Made by a program: the position numbers and the translations under genes. From Candidatus Altimarinota bacterium (GTDB lineage: Bacteria > Patescibacteriota > Gracilibacteria > BD1-5 > UBA2023), in contig JANJWP010000014.1 in assembly GCA_024709505.1 (NCBI GenBank), positions 115,047 through 179,046 of the forward strand: a stretch of DNA of 64,000 bases, read 5' to 3'. The notes under the pieces were generated by a model. The model was not told the origin of the DNA and made no database searches. It saw only the letters and a program-made list of their open reading frames with translations. Below are positions 5,072 through 55,047 of this stretch, piece by piece. Every line of letters begins with the position of its first letter. The stretch's first letter is position 1.

Positions 5072-5222
5072 GGGGAATCGGTTTCATGACCGACTGGCAG
5101 TATACCGCATTTTTCGCCTACAATCAAAAACAAACCCCATTCCGTTTTGACTTCTTCAAGCTGCGTTCGTATAAATACCCCGAAAACCCCCGGGATTCCG
5201 GGGGAAAACGTAACCGTTTCCT

Positions 5223-6221
5223 ATGCGCTTCGACTTCATTAAGCACCGCTTCGCGTTCTATGGAGTGGGTGCCGTTCTCATGGCCGCTTCGGTGGCCGCT
5301 GGGTGGCTGCTTCCCCTCAATCTCGGAATCGACATGACCGGATGAACCACGTCCGAATATTCTTACCGCGGGGAAATCGACGTTCCTTCCGTAAGATCCG
5401 CCGTCGAAGCCGTGAAAAATTCGGCGGTCTTCGCAGGAAAGGAAGTCGTGAACAACGTGAACGTCTACAAGGTGTCCGGCGAAGAGCTCCTCGTGGTCGA
5501 AGCCGGTTTTTCCCGCCTTGAAGGAATGGGCGATGCGGATTTGGAAAAATCCAAAGAAGCGTTCAAATCGGCGGTAACCTCGGTGGTTTCGGATGCCGCG
5601 ACGGACGTCGAACTTGCCCGGTACGTGAACGTCGGCGAATCTTTCGGGGATTACATTAAGGAGACCGCTTACCTCACTCTTGCCATGGTGGTTTTGTTCA
5701 TCTCGGCATATATCGCTTACGCTTTCCGCGGGTCAATCGAAGGATTCACGAGCTTCTCGTTCGGATTCGTTACCGCCGCGTCCCTCGTGCACGACGTTCT
5801 CATCGCTTTCGGACTCTACGTTGCCTCGTCGTTCTTTTTCCCGGAATTCAAGATCGACACGTTTTTCATTACCGCGATGCTCACGGTCCTCGGATACTCC
5901 ATTAACGACACCATCGTCATCATGGACCGTATCCGCTCGAACCTCAAAATTCCCGCGAACCGGAAAAAGGATTTCGGAGTCCTCATCAACGATTCGGTCA
6001 ACGACACCCTTGCCCGTTCGATTTACACTTCGCTCACGGTGTTCCTTACCCTCCTGGCTCTCTTTTTCTTCGGGCCGGAAGCGATTTCCGGATTCGTTCT
6101 CGCCCTCCTCTTTGGAACCGTGGTCGGAACGTACTCTTCCATTTGCCTCGCCGCACCGCTTCTCTACGATATCAGCAAGGATGCCAGAGCCACCGCCATC
6201 AGCGCGGCCGCCAAGAAATAG
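5223..6221 (+). CDS. secF: protein translocase subunit SecF
   Basis: ATG 5223, in-frame TGA at 5343 gives LGIDMTGGTTSEYSYRGEI (cf. GIDFTGGT); SecF TM core downstream. Confidence 0.93.
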
Positions 6222-6228
6222 CTCTCAA

Positions 6229-6258
6229 GAAAAGCTCCCGGAAACGGGAGTTTTTCTT
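6229..6258 (+). terminator. Rho-independent terminator downstream of secF
   Basis: AAAGCTCCCG-GAAA-CGGGAGTTTTT. Confidence 0.75.
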
Positions 6259-6357
6259 GGCCTTCGTTCGCCCCGTGATTTTTTTCGCATTTCGATTTTA
6301 CAAAAAGAACCGTCCCTATATACTTCCCTCGCTTCCCGTCAATAGAGCGGATGCCCT

Positions 6358-6434
6358 GCCCTTGTAGCTCAGCTGGATAGAGCGCCTGGCTTCGAACCAG
6401 GAGGTCGTGGGTTCGACTCCTGCCGGGGGCACCA
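6358..6434 (+). tRNA. tRNA-Arg(TCG)
   Basis: Cloverleaf; anticodon loop CTTCGAA; encoded CCA. Confidence 0.93.
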
Positions 6435-6467
6435 TGAAGAACCTCAAAAAGAAGCAATCCGCGAAAT

Positions 6468-6551
6468 GCCCAGGTGGTGGAATGGTAGACACGTACGCTT
6501 GAGGTGCGTATGCCGAAAGGTGTGGAGGTTCGAGTCCTCTTCTGGGCACCA
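6468..6551 (+). tRNA. tRNA-Leu(GAG)
   Basis: Class II tRNA, anticodon loop TTGAGGT, GCCCAG...CTGGGC acceptor, encoded CCA. Confidence 0.93.
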
Positions 6552-6562
6552 TGAAAATCACG

Positions 6563-6596
6563 AAATCCCCCGTTGAAAGACGGGGGATTTTCTTTT
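6563..6596 (+). terminator. Rho-independent terminator after the tRNA pair
   Basis: AAATCCCCCGT-TGAAAG-ACGGGGGATTTTCTTTT. Confidence 0.75.
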
Positions 6597-6681
6597 ATTT
6601 CCGATTTCTTTTTCCCGTTAAAACGCGTATGCTTCGTCTAGTGAATTAAACGTTAATAAGGCGAATTCGTTCAAACCCCCC

Positions 6682-7644
6682 ATGCATTCTTCCAATCTCC
6701 AACCTTCTTTGCCCACGCGGATTCCCGCGTCCGAACTTCCGGAATCCGGAGGCTCGACCGCCGTCTCGTCCCTCGTTACCGGGAGCGTCGTCTCCCTCCT
6801 TTCCCCAGCCGAACCGGCGGGGGAGCCGTTCGATATCCGGGGCGAAGTGGTCGGAAGGGTGAAAAATCTCGCGCCCCTTCCACAAACGATCCTCGACATT
6901 TACGCCCTCAAACGCTCGAATCCTCCCGACATCGATCGGCTTTTAAAGGTTATCCATGACGATACGGTCATTAAGGCCAATCTCGTCCGGATTTCCAATT
7001 CCGTAGCGTATGGTCCCGCGAGAAAAATCCGCACCGACGAGGATATCCTTCAGGTTCTCGGGTACCGGATGATCATTAACGTGGCGATGTGCACAAGCAT
7101 CAACGGGCATTTGCGCACCGACTTGTCGCCTTATGGAATTACCCAGGAAGAATTGACCGCCAATTCGAACCGTCAAAGCGAAATTATCGGCTTTTGGTCC
7201 GATCCGTCTTTGTCTTCCATCCGAGAAGATTTGCAGTTCGCGGCTTCGTTGCAAGACTTGGGAATCGTCGTCATTTCGAAAACCGCCTTGGAAAAAGGGC
7301 TTGCCCCGGCCTTTCGCGAATCCATGGAATCCATTGGGGATCGCGCTTTGGCGGAAGAGGCCGTATTCGGCCTTTCTTCTTCGGCCGTTACGGGCCTCAT
7401 TTTTGAAGAATGGAAATTCAGCGAAGACCTGATCGAATTCATCCGGGCTGCCGATTTTCCCGAGCGGGCTTCCGAAGAAGCTTCGCTCGGAGCGAAAGCG
7501 TTGAAAATCGCTAAAACCCTCGCTCCGGCGGGAATGCCTGAGTTCTCCTCCGAAGCCGTAGAAAAAGCCCGACACCTCGTCTGCGAATACGGATTTGAAG
7601 AACGGGCGTTCGAGCGGATGCTGGAAAGAATGTCCCAAGATTAA
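6682..7644 (+). CDS. HDOD-domain protein
   Basis: GRVKNLAPLPQTILDIYALKRSNPPDIDRLLKVIHDDTVIKANLVRISNS, typical HDOD opening. Confidence 0.8.
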   Translation: MHSSNLQPSLPTRIPASELPESGGSTAVSSLVTGSVVSLLSPAEPAGEPFDIRGEVVGRVKNLAPLPQTILDIYALKRSNPPDIDRLLKVIHDDTVIKANLVRISNSVAYGPARKIRTDEDILQVLGYRMIINVAMCTSINGHLRTDLSPYGITQEELTANSNRQSEIIGFWSDPSLSSIREDLQFAASLQDLGIVVISKTALEKGLAPAFRESMESIGDRALAEEAVFGLSSSAVTGLIFEEWKFSEDLIEFIRAADFPERASEEASLGAKALKIAKTLAPAGMPEFSSEAVEKARHLVCEYGFEERAFERMLERMSQD

Positions 7645-10195: not shown

Positions 10196-13057
10196 ATGTT
10201 ATTCAAGCGATTCAATATTTCTGCCTTTACGCTGGTGGAACTCATTGTTGTAATTGCAATTCTCGCGGTTCTCTCTGTCATGGGTTTCCTCGCCTTTTCT
10301 GGTTATTCTGATTCTGCAAGGGATGTGGCGAACCGTGCCAATGTTCGAAGCGTATATTCGGCCATATCTTCCGAAAGCGCACTTTCCGGAGAATCTCCTA
10401 GGAAATACATCGTTTTTCAAACGTGAGCAACCTTGTCGGGAGCAACTTTTTCTTGAGTCATTTTTGTTCCTGGTTCATATTCCGATCCGACCGCCAATTA
10501 TACCGCTGGGATTCCCGATTGGTCTCTGCTCCGCCTAGATCCATTAAAATTCCGAATCGCAAAATCCGATGCTTTTTCTATCGTTCAAACCGCCTTCGCC
10601 AATTTCGACCCGCTCGTCGGTGCTATTGAGGTTCCGGAAATACTGCCTTCTGGAAAAAGCCGTACTCGAAGCTTCTTCCAAGTTGCGGGAATTTCTTCAG
10701 CCGGAAGGGTGTATGTTGAAGGGAATTTTCCAACGTCGGTATCCGGTTCCATTTCTGGGCTGATTAAAAATCCCACAAATCCCACGGAAGCTTTAATTGA
10801 CAGTATTGTCACGGATGCTCCGATTTATGCCTCCTGCTCCGGTGCGACATGGTCCGGAACGCTTGCGATATATGATGTGCCTGATCTTGGACATGATGCA
10901 TCCGCTTCAATTTTTCATACGGGCTCGATTACGAACGGTACTTTGATTCATCGGGCGACGGCGTCTTGCGACAATGGAAATCTTTCGTATTCTTCCGAAT
11001 CAGTTTCCGGGGATTGTGACAATGGATACGCATGGAATTCTACGCTTTTCTCATGTCAAATGGCCTATGAGGAAATCGACGCGAGTTTTGGTTTTCACGC
11101 TTGCGGTATTCTTTCATCTTGAGTGGTCAAATGCTGGGGATACAACGCCAGCGGTCAACTTGGCAACAACTCTGTGGTTGATAGTGCTTCTCCCGTTAAC
11201 GTTTCTGGGCTAACTTCTGGAATATCAAACATTACGACGGGACATTCCCATACCTGCGCCCTCACCACTTCCGGCGGGGTCAAGTGCTGGGGATACAATG
11301 TAAGCGGCCAACTCGGAAACAATTCCACCACGAATAGCAGCGTTCCCGTAGACGTCGTCGGACTTTCTTCGGGCGTGGAGCGAATAAGCGTCGGATACAA
11401 TAGCGCCTGCGCCCTCACCACTTCCGGCGGGGTCAAGTGCTGGGGATACAACGCTTACGGTGGTCTCGGAAACAATTCCACCACGAATAGCAGCGTTCCC
11501 GTAGACGTCGTCGGACTTTCTTCGGGCGTGGAGCGAATAAGCGTCGGAACCCATGACGCCTGCGCCCTCACCACTTCCGGCGGGGTCAAGTGTTGGGGTT
11601 TTAATCATGTTGGCCAACTCGGAAACAATTCCACCACGAATAGCAGCGTTCCCGTAGACGTCGTCGGACTTTCTTCGGGCGTGGAACAAATTTTCGCAGG
11701 AAACGCCACAACCTGCGCAGTCCTTTCTTCCGGAGTAGTGAAATGCTGGGGATGGAATGCATATGGACAATTCGGTAACGGTACAGTTGGAAATTCTTCT
11801 GTCCCCGTTGTCATTTCGAGTCTTTCGAGGGTTACCCGGATTTCCATTTGAGCCTACAATGTCTGCGCCATCGTTTCTTGATCTCCAAAGTGCTGGGGGT
11901 CGAACGGATTCGGCCAACTCGGAATCGGCATTACTACAAATTCCTCCGTTCCGGTGGACGTCGTCGGACTTTCTTCGGGCGTAGCGCAGGTGGGTGCTTG
12001 AGTGTACGCATCCTGTGCCGTTACTTCCGCTGGAGAAGGAAAATGTTGGGGGTTTAATGGAAATGATCGTCTCGGAAATAATACAAACCATCAAATCGCT
12101 GCCGGAAGCGCCATTCCTGGAAATGTTTCCAGCCTTTCTTCGAGTGTCGAATGACTCAGCATGGGATATTCCAACGCCTGCGCCCTCACCACTTCCGGCG
12201 GGGTCAAGTGCTGGGGATACAACGCTTACGGTGGTCTCGGAAACGGTTCCACCACGAATAGCAGCGTTCCCGTAGACGTCGTCGGACTTTCTTCGGGAAT
12301 AACTAAGATATCCGCGGGCGTGCATAGCGCCTGCGCCCTCACCACTTCCGGCGGGGTCAAGTGCTGGGGATACAACGCTTACGGTAGTCTCGGAAACGGT
12401 TCCACCGCCGACAGCAGCGTTCCCGTAGACGTCGTCGGACTTTCTTCGGGGGTCTCGAGCATAAGTACTGGGTATTATCACGCCTGCGCCCTCACCACTT
12501 CCGGCGGGGTCAAGTGTTGGGGAAGAAATCAACAAGGCCAGCTCGGAAACGGTTCCACCGCCGACAGCAGCGTTCCCGTAGACGTCGTCGGACTTTCTTC
12601 GGGGGTCTCGAGCGTGAGCGTTGGAACTTACCACGCGTGCGCTGTCCTCTCAACCGGGGCCTTGAAGTGCTGGGGATACAACGCTTACGGCGGACTTGGT
12701 GATGGAACGGCCGTTGCTCGTCGCACTTCTCCCGTAGACGTCGTCGGACTTTCTTCGGGGGTCTCGAGCGTGAGCGCCGGATATTACCAATCCTGTGCCG
12801 TTCTTTCGACAGGAGCCGTAAAATGCTGGGGATATAATCTCTACGGCCAGCTCGGAAACGGTTCCACCACGAATAGCAGCATTCCCGTAGACGTCGTCGG
12901 ACTTTCTTCGGGGGTCTCGAGCATAAGTACTGGGTATTATCACGCCTGCGCCCTCACCACTTCCGGCGGGGTCAAGTGTTGGGGATTGAATGCTTACGGC
13001 GGACTAGGAAATGGAATACAAAATATTCATTCGACCCCTAAAGACGTGAATCCGTAG
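10196..13057 (+). CDS. type IV pilin-like N-terminus fused to 13 RCC1-type repeats (surface protein)
   Basis: Fragments 10196..10426, 10709..11122, 11123..11851 and 12161..13057 share one frame, interrupted only by TGA. N-term [27 protein letters not shown]; 13 repeats of the type VKCWGYNxxGQLGNxS. Confidence 0.88.
11105..13050 (+). repeat. tandem RCC1-type repeats, partly near-identical at DNA level
   Basis: Recurring blocks tgcgccctcaccacttccggcggggtcaagtg and agcgttcccgtagacgtcgtcggactttcttcggg. Confidence 0.9.
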
Positions 13058-23086: not shown

Positions 23087-23326
23087 CTAGCTCGTCATGA
23101 AATAGATGATTGCGAGCGAAATGCCAAGCAAGCAGAGCATGGTTATCCGAATCACGATCCTTTGTCGGCGATCGATCTTTTTGAGTCCGTTTTCGGCAAA
23201 CGGGGAACATTTATCGACGTGTCGGCGGTAGAGCACGTTGAGCCGCTTTTCAAAAACGGTCCATACGAACAGCCAGGCGACTGCGTACGAACCCATGAGC
23301 GCGACGGTAGCGAATCAGTCGCCCAT
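23087..23326 (-). CDS. small membrane protein
   Basis: With TGA=Gly: MGDGFATVALMGSYAVAWLFVWTVFEKRL...; two TM segments, ends TAG. Confidence 0.5.
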
Positions 23327-23453
23327 ATCCGGTTTGGTGAATGATAGGACTGCCTCCGTTTGCCACGAGTATATCGAACTCTCGGTTTTTGCAATAACGA
23401 TATGGATGTGTTACGATGTTTTGGAGTATCTTTTCCGCTTCCCGCCAAGACGC

Positions 23454-24770
23454 ATGTCGGCAATTACCAACGAAGAAGAATTCGAAAAAGTCAAAGAATC
23501 CCTCGCGAAAAAATCGGGAGGGGCGGCTTTTCGTTCCGAACGCTTCGACGAACTCTCAAAATTCGTTTCCGACGCTCTCGACCATCAGGACAGCGACCGG
23601 GCGTTGACGGTTATTACCCGCGGAGCCCTCTCTTTTGGGTGTTCCGACGTGCACTACGACCTTGCCGAAAGCGACACCGTCGTCCGTTTCCGCATTGACG
23701 GATCCCTCGTACCCGTTTTGCGATTGAGCCGCCAGCAGTACAAACTCATGCTCGAACGCCTCAAATACAAATCCGAACTCAAACTCAACATCACGAACGT
23801 TCCGCAGGACGGAAAATACCGCATCGAAGAAGAGGGACAGAAGATCGACGTCCGTATTTCGACCCTCCCCGTAAAATGGGGCGAGAACGTCGTGTGCCGC
23901 GTACTGGATTCGACGAGTTCGGTGCCCAAAATCGCCGACCTCGGATTCATGTGGACGAGCAAGCGCCAAATCGACAAAAGCCTTTCGAAAACGAACGGAA
24001 TGATTCTCGTAACGGGGCCGACGGGATCGGGAAAGACTACGACGCTCTATTCCATGCTTCGCGAACTCAATACCCAATCGCGCAAGATCATCACCCTTGA
24101 AGATCCCATCGAATACGAACTTCCCGGGGTCGTGCAGTCGGAGGTGAACGAAAAAAACGGCTATACCTACCACAACGGATTGAAGGCCTTGCTCCGCCAG
24201 GATCCCGATATCATCATGATCGGCGAAATCCGCGATTTGGAAACGGCGAACATCGCTGCCCAATCGGCTCTTACGGGACATTTGGTATTTTCGACGCTCC
24301 ACACGAAATCGGCGGCCGAAACTTTGGAGCGCCTCATGAACATGGGCGTTCCGTCATACATTCTTGCTTCTTCCATCGACATCATCATCGCCCAAAGGCT
24401 CGTGCGCAAGCTCTGTCCCCATTGCATCGAGTCTTATGAAGCCGACGCCGCCCAATCCGACACGATTCGTTGGATGATGCGCGACATTGGGATTGGCGCC
24501 GTGGAAAAGGCGCGTAAGGACGGATTCAAACTCCACCGATCGAAAGGATGCGAACATTGCGGATTCACGGGTTTTCGGGGGCGCCTTTGAATCTATGAGG
24601 TCCTCCATTTTTCCGAGGGAGTTCGCGATTTGGTCCGAAAAGGGGAGAGTCCTTCGAAAATTCTTGAGGAGGGTCGCAAAAACGATCTCATCCTCATGCG
24701 GGAGGACGGCGTATTGAAGGCCATGCGGGGAAAAACGACCCTCGAAGAGATTTTCGCGGCCATCGGGTAG
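23454..24770 (+). CDS. type IV pilus/T2SS assembly ATPase (PilB/GspE family)
   Basis: Walker A TGPTGSGKTTTLYSML, Walker B DPDIIMIGEIRDLETA, C-terminal HCGFTGFRGRLGIYEVL with TGA=Gly at 24588. Confidence 0.93.
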
Positions 24771-47195: not shown

Positions 47196-47492
47196 ATGTC
47201 GCTCACGCAAGAACAAATCGCCCACATAGCGAGACTCTCCCGGCTTTCGCTCTCGCCCGAAGAGCTCGAAAAGTACCGCACCGACCTTTCTTCGGTCGTC
47301 GATTACGTCGAAGTTCTCTCTTCGGTTCCGTCCGAATCTCTCGAGGGAATCGAGCCGACCTTCCCTTCGGTACTTCCGCTCCGCGGCGACGTCGTCAAGG
47401 AAAAGCCCGATCCCACCCGAAAAGAACTCCTTGCCCGTTCGCCGCAACGCGTCGTGGCCGACCAAATCGCCATTCCTAACATCATGGGATAA
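47196..47492 (+). CDS. gatC: Asp/Glu-tRNA(Asn/Gln) amidotransferase subunit C
   Basis: LTQEQIAHIARLSRLSLSPEELEKYRTDLSSVVDYVEVL. Confidence 0.92.
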   Translation: MSLTQEQIAHIARLSRLSLSPEELEKYRTDLSSVVDYVEVLSSVPSESLEGIEPTFPSVLPLRGDVVKEKPDPTRKELLARSPQRVVADQIAIPNIMG

Positions 47493-48607
47493 TGCGGGTC
47501 GTCCAAATCGCCTGCTACCGGTTTAAGAACCATTTCGAGACGGCGGTTCCCCTCTTTGGGCGGACCGCCGTTTCCGGCCCCAACGGCTCGGGAAAGACCA
47601 ATTTTCTCGAAGCCGCCTATTTCGCATTGAACGGCGCCCTACCTCCCGGAAAGCGTGCTACCGAGCTCGCCTCGGGCTTCGAAGGCGCGTTTTTCGTCCG
47701 GGCCAATATCGAAAACGAGTCAGGGCTTTCCTACGAGTTCCGCATTTCTTGCGACGTCCAAAAGAAATCGGTCTCGTTCGCCGTGCAGGGCGAAAACGTT
47801 TCCCGTTCGACCTACCTCGAAAGGCTTCCTTTGAGGGCGATGCTTTTTTCGCCCATCGAAATGAACGTCCTCTATCTCGGTCCTTCGCTCCGCCGGGATT
47901 TTTTGGACGAACCCGTTTCCCTCGCGTTCCCCGAATTTTCCAAACTTAAAAAGGAATACGCCGCCGCGCTCAAAAACCGGAACGTCCTCTTGAAAAAGAT
48001 CGCCGAAGGCGAAGCGAAATCCGAAGACCTTTCGGTTTGGGATCCCCTTTTCGCCGCCAAGGCCGCCGAATATCTCCGTTACCGCCTGAAATTCGTCGAT
48101 TATGTTCTTGCCCGCTCATCGAAACTCGGCGAATTTCTCGACGGAAAGTACGACGTCCGTTTCCGTTATGAAACCAAGACCGACCTCTCCGACATCGAAG
48201 GAAGCGTTTTGGCCTACCTTGCCAAAAACCGTGAACGCGACGTGATGCTCGGCCATACCTACGTCGGCCCTCATCTTGACGATTTTTCCCTTTCGGTCGC
48301 CGTCGCCTCCGGCGAAGTCCGGACGGAGGCCTACCTTTCGAGAGGGGAGAACAAGTCCCTGCTTTTCGCGCTCAAGCTTCTATCCGCCCAATTCCTCGAA
48401 GAAACCGGCGGAAAGCCGCTTTTCCTCCTTTTCGACGATCTTTTTTCGGAACTCGATCCCCATCGAGTCGAAGTCGTGCTCGATTCGGTGCGCCAAAAAG
48501 CCTTTGTGATTGCCGGACAAAAAATCCCAAAAGAAATGGCGGAACGCTTTTCCATGGGGAAATACGAATTTCAAAACGGCCACGATTTTCCTAAAGAGAA
48601 TAATTAA
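47492..48607 (+). CDS. recF: DNA replication/repair protein RecF
   Basis: CYRFKNHFETAVPLFGRTAVSGPNGSGKTNFLEAAYFA; YLSRGENKSLLFALKLLSAQFL; LFDDLFSELD. Confidence 0.92.
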   Translation: MRVVQIACYRFKNHFETAVPLFGRTAVSGPNGSGKTNFLEAAYFALNGALPPGKRATELASGFEGAFFVRANIENESGLSYEFRISCDVQKKSVSFAVQGENVSRSTYLERLPLRAMLFSPIEMNVLYLGPSLRRDFLDEPVSLAFPEFSKLKKEYAAALKNRNVLLKKIAEGEAKSEDLSVWDPLFAAKAAEYLRYRLKFVDYVLARSSKLGEFLDGKYDVRFRYETKTDLSDIEGSVLAYLAKNRERDVMLGHTYVGPHLDDFSLSVAVASGEVRTEAYLSRGENKSLLFALKLLSAQFLEETGGKPLFLLFDDLFSELDPHRVEVVLDSVRQKAFVIAGQKIPKEMAERFSMGKYEFQNGHDFPKENN

Positions 48608-48717: not shown

Positions 48718-50430
48718 ATGAAACGACTTCTCGCCGCTTTTCTCTCCGTCGCGTTCTTCTTTCCCCATCAGGCCGTATTTGCCGCTGGAAAAATCGCGAA
48801 ATTCTCACTCACCGTCAACCAATCCGCCAAGGTCGGCGAAGCGCTTGACCTTACCGTGAAGGCTCTCGATAAGGACGGTGCCGTCGTTGCCGACTATGCC
48901 GGAACCGTCTACGTTACCGTCGATAACGATTCCAAAGCCACCATCCCGTATGCCGAAGGCTACACCTTCGTTTCCGCCGATCAAGGATCCAAAACCTTCT
49001 CCAAGGGCCTCGCGTTTTCCAAGGCTGGAAACATGACCGTTTCGGTCATCGACATCGACGACGACAAGGTTGAAGGCGTTGCCAAGGTTAACGTCACCGA
49101 GGGTGACTCCGGACCGGGCGTAACCGGATCGGAGTCGGTTGCCATTACTACGCCCGAAGCGGGCGGAACCGTTTCCGGAACCGAAACCGACATCGTTGGA
49201 ACTTCCAAGAAAAATTCCAAGTTCCAGGTGTTTCTCAACGGAGAAAAATCGGGCGAAGGCCAGACCGACGACAAGGGAGCCATCCTCTACAAGCTCAAGG
49301 GCATCGACCAAGAACAAAACGTTCTCGAAGTGAAGGTTCTCGACGGTTCCGACAAAGAAATCGGAACTTCCGGAAAGATTTCGTTCTCGGTAGCCGCTTC
49401 CGAAGGTCCGGCGTTCAAGTCCGTCACCATTAAGGAAGGAAAAACCGTAAAAGCCGGAACCGTTCTTAACGTCACCATCGCGGCCGATCCGAAGCTCAAG
49501 GAAGTTTCGGTTTCCTTTGGCGACAGCATCGAAGTTTTTAAGGAGCAGGCCTCCGGAGTCACCGCCGGAAACGTCACCGTAGGTTCGACGGGCGAGGGGA
49601 TATATGTTGGAACCGTCGTCGCGCCGATGACCCCGGGCGAATATCCGCTCGACGTCACGCTTGCCAACGACATGGGAAAAAAGACCGTCAAGACCGCCGC
49701 CGAAACCGTTACCGTTACCGAACTCCCGAAGCCGGCGTTCGAAAACGTCAAGGTCGAAACCTCCGAAACCCGCGCAACCTTCACTTTCTCGGTCGTAAAC
49801 GAACCGGAATCGGTTTCCAAGTTCAAGTTCTCCTACGGGACTGATTCCGGAGCCCTTTCGGAAGAATCGGTCACCTTCGAAAAAGCGAAGATCGTCCTCT
49901 CCGGTTCTGGAACTTCCGCTTCGGGCGCCACCTATAAGTGGTACGTCGATAATCTCGAACCCGGAAAATACTTCTTCAAGATCGCCGGACTCGATATCGC
50001 GGGGTCTCCGGTGACCGGAGTCGAATCCGACCTTCTCGAAGCTGAAATCAGCCTCAATGCCGCCGGCAAGTGTTCCATCGCCAACGTTTCGGGCCTCAAG
50101 GTCGCAACCACCGAAGATCAAAGCGTCCTCTCTTGGGATTCCATCCCCGAAGCATTGAGCTACAACGTTTACAAAAAAGACACCTCCGGATCTTACGGTC
50201 TCATTGAGAACGTAAAAGTTACTTCCTACACCATCCATTTGGCGAAGGACAGCGTTAAATTCGAGGATTTCGCCGTAAAGGCCGTCTGTTCCGACGCCGT
50301 TACCGAATCGGCTGACTATGCCGAAGCCACCAAGGTCCAAACCGGTCCGGCCCAAGTCATCGCGCTCCTTTCCCTCGCGCTCGGAATCGGATTCTTCATT
50401 ACCCGCCGCCGCTTCGGTTTCGGTTCGTAA
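48718..50430 (+). CDS. secreted multi-domain (Ig/FN3-like) surface protein with C-terminal TM anchor
   Basis: Signal peptide, beta-rich repeats, C-terminal ALLSLALGIGFFITRRRFGFGS; no TGA. Confidence 0.75.
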   Translation: MKRLLAAFLSVAFFFPHQAVFAAGKIAKFSLTVNQSAKVGEALDLTVKALDKDGAVVADYAGTVYVTVDNDSKATIPYAEGYTFVSADQGSKTFSKGLAFSKAGNMTVSVIDIDDDKVEGVAKVNVTEGDSGPGVTGSESVAITTPEAGGTVSGTETDIVGTSKKNSKFQVFLNGEKSGEGQTDDKGAILYKLKGIDQEQNVLEVKVLDGSDKEIGTSGKISFSVAASEGPAFKSVTIKEGKTVKAGTVLNVTIAADPKLKEVSVSFGDSIEVFKEQASGVTAGNVTVGSTGEGIYVGTVVAPMTPGEYPLDVTLANDMGKKTVKTAAETVTVTELPKPAFENVKVETSETRATFTFSVVNEPESVSKFKFSYGTDSGALSEESVTFEKAKIVLSGSGTSASGATYKWYVDNLEPGKYFFKIAGLDIAGSPVTGVESDLLEAEISLNAAGKCSIANVSGLKVATTEDQSVLSWDSIPEALSYNVYKKDTSGSYGLIENVKVTSYTIHLAKDSVKFEDFAVKAVCSDAVTESADYAEATKVQTGPAQVIALLSLALGIGFFITRRRFGFGS

Positions 50431-53133: not shown

Positions 53134-55047
53134 TTATTGGAGGGCGCAGCGAAAACCGACGACCCGATACGAAGAAGTTGTTCCCCAATCTAAGTGTTTT
53201 GCAAAAATTCCGGCGTAGTCGCCGCTATTGCCACCGTATCCGCGAAGCAGCACGCGGTTGGAACCTCCGGTCGGATACGAATGGATGCGTCCGATTCCGT
53301 TTGAGGCGTTCATGTTCGCGGTCGCGGGACCGTATCCCGCGTAGGAATACGGGGCGCTGAAGGAACAGGTTCCCCCGGCCGCGCCGTCGGTGCCGGAAAA
53401 CGAGTACCAGTTGTCGGATCATGCACAAACTTGTCCGGCCATGGTACCATAGCCCGTTCCGTCCAAGGTGTTCGCCCCGTTGACGTGTTCCCAAACGTTT
53501 CCGGCGAGGTCCCAGACGATTTCCCCGTTGGTGAGTTTGAGTTGGCGTTTGTCGGCGCAGCTCGAACGGCTGGACGAGAGCGCGGCGTTGTCCGCGGAAG
53601 CCGCGGCGACATGGTCGGTTCCGGCGCCGTCGCATCCGAGCGAATCAAATTCCAAACCGTTGTTTCCCCGGAACATCCCGCCCGACCCCACCGATCCTCC
53701 CGACCAGTTCGCCGCGACCGATTCGGCGTTGCGGGCGACGGTCATCCATTCGTCGTTGGTCACGAGGTGGTAGCCGCTTCAAAGGGAGGCGCATGCGGCG
53801 ATGGCCTGGCTTTGGGTGAGGTCGGCGACGGGGGTTCATTCCGCTGTGCTCGCGTATGCGGCCCCCGCGGCGTATTTCCAGGTTTTCCACCCGTCCCCGG
53901 AAGGTTCCGAATCGCAGGCGATGCCCGGAAGTCCGCCGCACTGCCCCGGACTTTCGGACGTGTCCGCGAACTTCATCTCGTACTTCGCGAGGCAGAAATC
54001 CCCGGCAGCGGTCGGGAAGTCCGGGTTTCCCGGAACCCGGACGAAGCCCGCCGGGCAAACCCAGCCGCACGACGCGTCCGCGAACGTTCCGGAGAGGGTT
54101 CCGTCCGAACACGTCCGGGTTTCCGAAGCGCATGAGGAGTCGGGGTAGGTCGCTGCCCGGTATGCCGTGGCGGAATCCCCGTGCGCGAGCGTCCCGCCCC
54201 ACGGGAGGGCGCAGGAAGCCGGGGCCGGAATTCCGGAATCCCCTCCGTCCCCGGATCCTTCCGACGCCGAAACCGTTGACGAATCCGCGAGGGCTTCGGC
54301 CGGTCCGGCGTCCGGGTTGCGGACGAGTCCCGCGGCGGCGGGCTTGCCGTTGGATTCCGATGCGGCGAAGTCGGCGGCGGAAGGCGCCGGGAAATTCCCG
54401 AAAACGACCGCGGTTCCGGCGTCCGGAAGGATGCCGGCCACCTGGAAGAACGCCGCGGTACGGACGCGTCCGTTCGCGGAAGCCGTCGGGACGTCGGCGG
54501 CCCCGGCGGAAAGCGCGGTCCTGTCGAAGGCGGCGAGGGCTTCCGGAAGGAAGGGCGCGAAGGCGGCGGCCAAGCGGGAGTCCGCGGAAATTCCGGAAAC
54601 GCGGAACTTCCCGCCGTCGAGTTTGAGCCGGTCCCACCGAGGTTGTCCGGCGGTGTAGTTCGAATCCGCCGGGGCTTCCCCGACGTTCCCTCCCGTGAGG
54701 GCGACGGGGGTTCCATCGACGTAGAGGTACGCTCCGGAGAGGGCGTAGTCGGCGTCGTGGGAAACGTAGTAGCGGGGCGAGTTGCCCGTGAGGGCGGATT
54801 CGTTCGCGATCGCCGAATGCGCCGCGCGGACGTTGGCCTTCGCGCGGGCGTCGCGGGCGTCGGAAGAGTATCCGGAGAGCGCGAGGAATCCTATCGTGGC
54901 GAGAACCGCCAAAATCGTTATCACGACGACGAGTTCGGCGAGGGTGAATCCCGAGAGTTTCTTCGACGCCGCCTTGCGGAGCGTGCGGGAGACCCGGGAG
55001 GAGACGGAATCGGAAACGGCGGACAAACCCGTTTTTCGCGAAGCCAT
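53134..55047 (-). CDS. type IV pilin-like N-terminus fused to FGE-sulfatase/C-type-lectin-like domain
   Basis: 53836..55047 and 53419..53763 in one frame plus the extension to TAA at 53134, via TGA; FTLAELVVVITILAVLATIGFLALSGY; FVRVPGNPDFPTAAGDFCLAKYEM, NGEIVWDLAGNVWEHVNG, SSYRVVGFRCALQ. Confidence 0.87.

Follow-up and report, generated by a model that had tools for sequence, protein, structure and literature searches.

A modular type IV pilin with a probable DGR-type, C-type-lectin-like head, and its head-swapped paralogues, in a Gracilibacteria genome

Modular pilins and C-type lectins varied by diversity-generating retroelements (DGRs) are each already known, and a gene in a 64,000-nucleotide stretch of a Gracilibacteria genome (the stretch is here called the window; source genome G000, 1.17 Mb in 33 contigs, 98% complete) raises the question of whether a single protein may draw on both. 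An initial annotation placed at this locus a pilin-like protein with an FGE-like C-terminus; its coordinates hold, while the minus-strand orientation, the recoded TGA codons, and the connection to DGRs had been missed. Gracilibacteria and Absconditabacteria use code 25, in which TGA encodes glycine, as established for Gracilibacteria (PMC11452946). Because of three in-frame TGA codons (G404, G423, and G543), the gene is open under code 25 only; read with table 11 it contains three internal stops, the first of which ends the protein at residue 403. We regard it as next to impossible that these stops are real and that a 403-aa pilin is followed by unrelated sequence, the long protein being a translation artefact: the interrupted table 11 frame speaks for this, but the conserved head continues across the TGAs at 72 to 82% identity in a paralogue on contig C15 and in a homologue from the congener G001, residue 423 is glycine in all three proteins, TGAs also occur in homologous genes of the same genome and the same order, and the closest named matches are mostly Candidatus Gracilibacteria, with some unplaced Patescibacteria, code 25 being established for the former (PMC11452946).

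The N-terminus carries a class III signal in which G33 and F34 flank the predicted cleavage site and T, L, A, and E38 follow ahead of a hydrophobic helix, so that the pattern of G/A at -1, F at +1, and E at +5 is present; the F, T, L, E, and L columns are invariant in the family alignment (A1), and the leader, at 33 aa, is long for such a signal. Curated cut-offs were exceeded by both PF07963 (24.5 bits versus 21.2) and TIGR02532 (21.5 bits versus 16.3), and a profile of the module matched solved pilins over their N-terminal part only (7tgg, E = 1e-10), which confirms the pilin-like N-terminus read from the sequence at the outset. The roughly 230 aa that this protein was said to have in common with the RCC1-headed protein of the window were recovered as well, at 42% identity over residues 29 to 334 (E = 7.6e-39) and, by phmmer with residues 1 to 240, at E = 1.5e-37. 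Residues 27 to 167 also matched a plain pilin adjoining pilB on contig C24 (44% identity, E = 3.5e-21, single-sequence search). AlphaFold predicted a confident helix at residues 36 to 58 and an unusable fold beyond this first helix; the module model (pLDDT 66) had no fold match in the PDB, and the full-length model from a single sequence (pLDDT 36) failed to predict the head.

Table 1. The pilin gene and its parts, the related pilins of the source genome, and associated assembly genes. Positions refer to the window unless a contig (C) is named.
Feature	Location	Strand	Remarks
Modular type IV pilin gene	53134..55047	minus	637 aa, code 25 (TGA = Gly)
Leader peptide, residues 1-33, ...KKLSG/FTLAEL	54949..55047	minus	PF07963 and TIGR02532 over cut-off; alignment A1
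Mature pilin module, residues 34-245: alpha-1 helix and variable domain	54313..54948	minus	Common to paralogues and plain pilin on C24
Linker with Cys-containing segment (CALPWGGTLAHGDSATAYRA...), residues 246-330	54058..54312	minus	Sequence
FGE-subtype C-type-lectin-like head, residues 331-637	53137..54057	minus	Sub-threshold PF03781, homologues, 5vf4 TaqVP, L280
Variable-region-like patch, residues 604-630 (YGGNSGDYAGIFAKHLDWGTTSSYRVV)	53158..53238	minus	Comparison with C15, G001, and L280
In-frame TGA = Gly404	53836..53838	minus	
In-frame TGA = Gly423	53779..53781	minus	Gly likewise in C15 and G001 homologues
In-frame TGA = Gly543	53419..53421	minus	
RCC1 beta-propeller head on same pilin module	10196..13057	plus	Code 25; needs TGA = Gly
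T2SSE-family assembly ATPase (PilB/PilT type)	23238..24770	plus	One of four full-length copies in genome
Divergent PilD (prepilin peptidase)	C8:6442-7449		Found with lineage-specific query
FGE-like head	Window gene and C15		
FISUMP head (below cut-off)	C33		
RCC1 head	Window 10196, C6, C8		
Fibrinogen-like GGGWT head	C4		
SPRY + DUF7483 head	C2		
Plain pilin without head	C24:36379		Divergent from pilB in pilT-pilC-pilB locus; second pilin adjoins

Searching the source genome with the window protein gave matches at 18 places, which under code 25 resolve into 12 to 14 loci with the module. An exact count is hampered by four contigs (C6, C33, C24, and C13) that end inside family copies, as expected of near-identical repeats that break assembly; looser prepilin matches on C23 and C10 proved to be ordinary pilin-like genes and were left out of the family. 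The initial annotation had proposed to look for more copies of the module and would have been contradicted by a lack of further members and of N-terminal similarity; both exist, at the 12 to 14 loci and with the E value given above. Heads were assigned by Pfam and NCBIfam, and at least five recognised types are represented (Table 1); those at C27:87250 and C8:21491 were assigned to no family by either resource. The headed pilin on C2 (L026:3903-8000) is at least 1,366 aa long and contains SPRY and DUF7483 domains, and the linker of the C15 paralogue is longer than that of the window protein, with extra segments that appear as a gap in their alignment. Since one pilin of the genome (C24:36379) has no head, the headed proteins look like pilins with grafted domains, and since the module is retained and the head changes from paralogue to paralogue, the cell would carry a repertoire of pilus-borne binding heads. 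The modular set of surface pilins with exchangeable heads that had been suggested is thus upheld as to the module and its differing heads, while surface display and assembly into pili are steps that we infer.

Identity among the paralogues is mosaic. The window copy and the copy at the start of C6 are 100% identical over ∼165 bp of 5′ untranslated region and leader and only patchily so beyond, and the copies at the starts of C24 and C13 are 99.5% identical over 218 bp from the first mature residue, with unrelated leaders and upstream DNA. Window and C15 genes are near-identical over much of the head, with about two-thirds identity in the last ∼110 bp. Judged from these alignments, gene conversion and the exchange of segments between paralogues seem to have taken place, and assembly effects at contig ends may contribute to the pattern.

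The genome encodes four full PilB/PilT-type ATPases and eight PilC half-domains. A PF01478 search of G000 returned nothing, and this family scores weakly in relatives too; a missing prepilin peptidase can be rejected, as a lineage-specific query finds a divergent PilD. The prepilin peptidase family of this order scores near or below the Pfam cut-off. Assembly genes besides the ATPase of the window, which it had been suggested to check for, are accordingly present in the form of PilB/T, PilC, and PilD. A PilD-type peptidase would cleave the window protein between G33 and F34, the PilB/PilC machinery would build it into a type IV filament or attach it to one, and the head would be exposed for binding to a host cell, a prey cell, or some other surface. 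Elsewhere in the window, a 570-aa open reading frame without a Pfam match (48718-50430, plus strand) adjoins an SMC/AAA (AbiEii-like) ATPase (47492-48607, plus strand), and the two could form a two-gene system.

The pilin module extends to relatives, with profile matches in 40 of the 40 searched, mostly over the N-terminal pilin helix; among the matches listed, those that are near full length and high scoring come only from this genus (G000 and G001). The congener G001 has 18 matches, and its module carries FGE, FISUMP, LamG-like, and other heads. One relative (G008) has 70 pilin-profile matches and the others have up to 40; the G008 genome is 2.4 Mb in size with 6% contamination, and some of its 70 matches lie at contig ends. 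Named Gracilibacteria loci have this architecture as well, with different heads that by eye resemble RCC1, LamG, and FISUMP.

What the head of the window protein is can be approached through its homologues. PF03781 matches it below threshold (E = 0.06, 13.4 bits versus a cut-off of 23.3), and a profile of three FGE heads (window, C15, and G001) has a sole and weak PDB match (E = 0.013) in 5vf4, which is TaqVP, a DGR variable protein with the FGE-subtype C-type-lectin fold (PMC6328139). A third line of evidence comes from locus L280 of the relative G076, where a DGR-type reverse transcriptase (motif GLPIGSIVSQ) and a template accompany a variable protein homologous to the window head; the variable gene fragment aligns to window residues 454 to 635, and a contig end cuts it before its N-terminus. 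The FGE-like C-terminus of the initial annotation draws its support from the C15 and G001 homologues, the weak TaqVP match, and the DGR-linked L280 more than from the sub-threshold family match.

Similarity to PF03781 and the several T2SSE/T2SSF sets of the genome could also be read to mean that the protein is a pseudopilin-like, membrane-anchored surface enzyme, its head a formylglycine-generating (FGE-family) enzyme delivered by a type II-like system. Active sites of FGE enzymes contain a Cys pair. No such pair was seen by eye near the C-terminus of the window protein, where C634 is the sole Cys in the last 40 residues, and the hypervariability of the C-terminal patch from head to head is more in keeping with a ligand face than with an active site. 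The family score is also nearly 10 bits short of its cut-off, and the sister heads (RCC1, FISUMP, SPRY, and fibrinogen-like) have binding as their common theme, so that an enzymatic head is very improbable.

When the three FGE heads (window, C15, and G001) are aligned with the L280 template, each of its nine Asn codons meets a variable column, compared with 7 variable columns among the 26 others (Fisher p = 1.6e-4); the only gap in this alignment concerns a single G001 residue. At codon positions 1, 2, and 3, the C15 and G001 genes, which come from two species, differ at 10, 6, and 2 sites in the patch and at 41, 33, and 92 sites over the remainder of the head; third positions thus account for 2 of 18 differences in the patch versus 92 of 166 elsewhere (p = 3e-4) or, per third-position site, 2 of 35 versus 92 of 249 (p = 8e-5). 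From the sequences, this pattern is what a shared template with NNY codons would be expected to leave. Between window and C15, 17 of the 34 differences in the patch are at third positions, so the window copy is not a recent product of the template that served C15. Third-position GC in the window gene drops from about 0.78 to about 0.47 to 0.5 around residues 604 to 630, and its patch may stem from a different template or have been swapped in by recombination.

No DGR reverse transcriptase was found in G000 (98% complete) or the congener G001 (79%) by searches with the reverse transcriptase family and a DGR reverse transcriptase profile. In the same two genomes, pattern and BLAST/DNA searches for a template of the window, C15, and C33 patches returned only the genes themselves, and local template/variable repeat scans of G000 revealed no DGR. 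The sole reverse transcriptase of G000, on C32, was considered as a DGR enzyme and rejected since it is of retron type. This gene (C32:1289-2371, L020, minus strand) has QGAPTSP and YADD motifs and matches PADLOC RT_XIII/RT_III-A at E of about 1e-62; L222 of the congener is probably its orthologue. A viral origin of the window gene was likewise set aside, as it had no match in viral contigs or phage records. With neither reverse transcriptase nor template in G000 and G001, the window protein departs from DGR variable proteins in two defining features, and we class it as a modular pilin whose head is of DGR type and not as a proven DGR target. The head nonetheless appears from its sequence to be homologous to a DGR-type binding head and would work like one, and present diversification is possible. 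The stronger proposal, that Gracilibacteria type IV pili form an adaptive receptor system, in which a constant pilin module is duplicated over and over with swapped heads and DGRs mutate C-type-lectin heads on pilins so that ever new host ligands are explored, and that the window gene is a target today, its cassette residing on an unassembled or extrachromosomal piece, strikes us as doubtful.

Headed pilins are DGR targets elsewhere in the order. Several relatives encode, near a headed pilin, a reverse transcriptase whose motif, GLPIGNLTSQ, is that of DGRs; we surveyed 77 genomes of the order for DGRs, seeking template and variable repeats as pairs that differ at template adenines only. Nine cassettes in eight genomes (L211, L212, L213, L217, L219, L268, L269, L270, and L277) combine a reverse transcriptase, a template, and a target with an intact prepilin motif; L270 and L080 are apparently one contig, JAQUZB010000014.1, as they share an identical gene tail. 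Seven further targets are cut by contig ends (L216, L271, L274, L275, L276, L280, and L249). In 16 template/variable pairs, 250 of 258 mismatches are at template A, and control scans in which C, G, or T took the place of A as the mutable base gave no matches. Among seven targets scanned with Pfam, PF07963 is above cut-off in six, the seventh (L216) being cut before its N-terminus, and FISUMP matches the heads of all seven, five above and two below cut-off. The L276 and L249 cassettes have two variable genes each, the internal second one without a visible pilin motif, and pilins are thus only part of the target set. The DGR-type reverse transcriptase of L277 (G064, 5193-7139) is 649 aa long versus ∼400 for the others, and the L277 target is a pilin with a tail unlike FISUMP. 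Two other reverse transcriptases (G022:C109, L192, and G036:C33, L199) have the motif G(V/I)PIG..(L/I)SQ and YMDD and are unlike both the retron type and the main DGR types seen here. Hypermutation of headed pilins by DGRs in these relatives suggests how host-dependent bacteria might keep changing their adhesion.

A serious, if minority, prospect is that the window head was never touched by a DGR and owes its diversity solely to ordinary processes, namely duplication, gene conversion between paralogues, and selection acting on the ligand face. The absence of a detected DGR from G000 and its congener fits this account, as does the mosaic identity between paralogues (window with the C6-start copy, and C24-start with C13-start), and gene conversion with selection could mimic low third-position divergence. 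Selection alone, on the other hand, would not be expected to lower third-position divergence between species exactly in the patch, nor to produce the nine-of-nine coincidence with the template Asn codons of a homologous DGR. We therefore favor, at a probability of about 0.77, a modular type IV pilin that acts as a pilin-borne receptor with a head of the DGR-variable-protein type, its ancestors having probably been subject to diversification by a DGR. The receptor reading follows from the match of the putative ligand face, residues 604 to 630, to the variable region of a DGR homologue and from the targeting of headed pilins by DGRs in the order. Recognition of host or prey is, by analogy, the most likely role of the headed pilins.

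Modular type IV pilins have been described for Streptococcus sanguinis PilB/PilC by Raynaud et al. 2021, with 264 architectures, Patescibacteria included (PMC8179133), in a study which also reports that a domain grafted on a pilin acts in adhesion. The window protein resembles PilB/PilC, as portrayed there, in its N-terminal pilin module, class III signal, and C-terminal domain that is not specific to pili. It is unlike them in that one ∼230-aa module recurs, within 1.17 Mb of genome, in 12 to 14 paralogues that bear five or more recognised head types, and DGR-targeted heads such as those of Gracilibacteria relatives are not reported in the passages of that study consulted. As in TaqVP (5vf4), Mtd, and TvpA (PMC6328139), the patch lies at the extreme C-terminus, ending in GFRC; unlike for those proteins, the genome has no reverse transcriptase or template that we could detect, and the head sits on a pilin module. 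Most cellular DGR targets are considered to be binding proteins anchored in the membrane, and those of CPR/Patescibacteria share C-terminal C-type-lectin domains with the targets described here (Roux et al. 2021, PMC8144416). Compared by targets, the CPR-clade targets of that study lack recognizable membrane or other domains, whereas the Gracilibacteria targets have a prepilin signal and pilin helix. Type IV pili of Saccharibacteria have a demonstrated role in host binding and episymbiosis, and headed or hypermutated pilins are not described for them in the abstract of that report (PMC12206443). Another study links “putative pilin structures” to DUF1566 domains of DGR targets, citing earlier work (PMC6642488). 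In the literature searched, we found no description of repeated headed-pilin DGR targets or of a large head-swapped family in Gracilibacteria, although Paul et al. 2017 (CPR DGRs) and Xie et al. 2022 (Saccharibacteria pilus) may mention pilin targets.

How Patescibacteria choose and retain their hosts is an open question, and PMC8144416 did not settle by what route CPR-clade DGR targets, in which no membrane domain can be recognized, get to the surface, or how they function. One concrete and testable answer, suggested by the Gracilibacteria lectin heads that are targeted by DGRs and joined to a pilin signal, is display on type IV pili. Together with the swapping of heads among paralogues, this would provide a bacterium with an analogue of a variable receptor repertoire, held in a genome of roughly 1 Mb.
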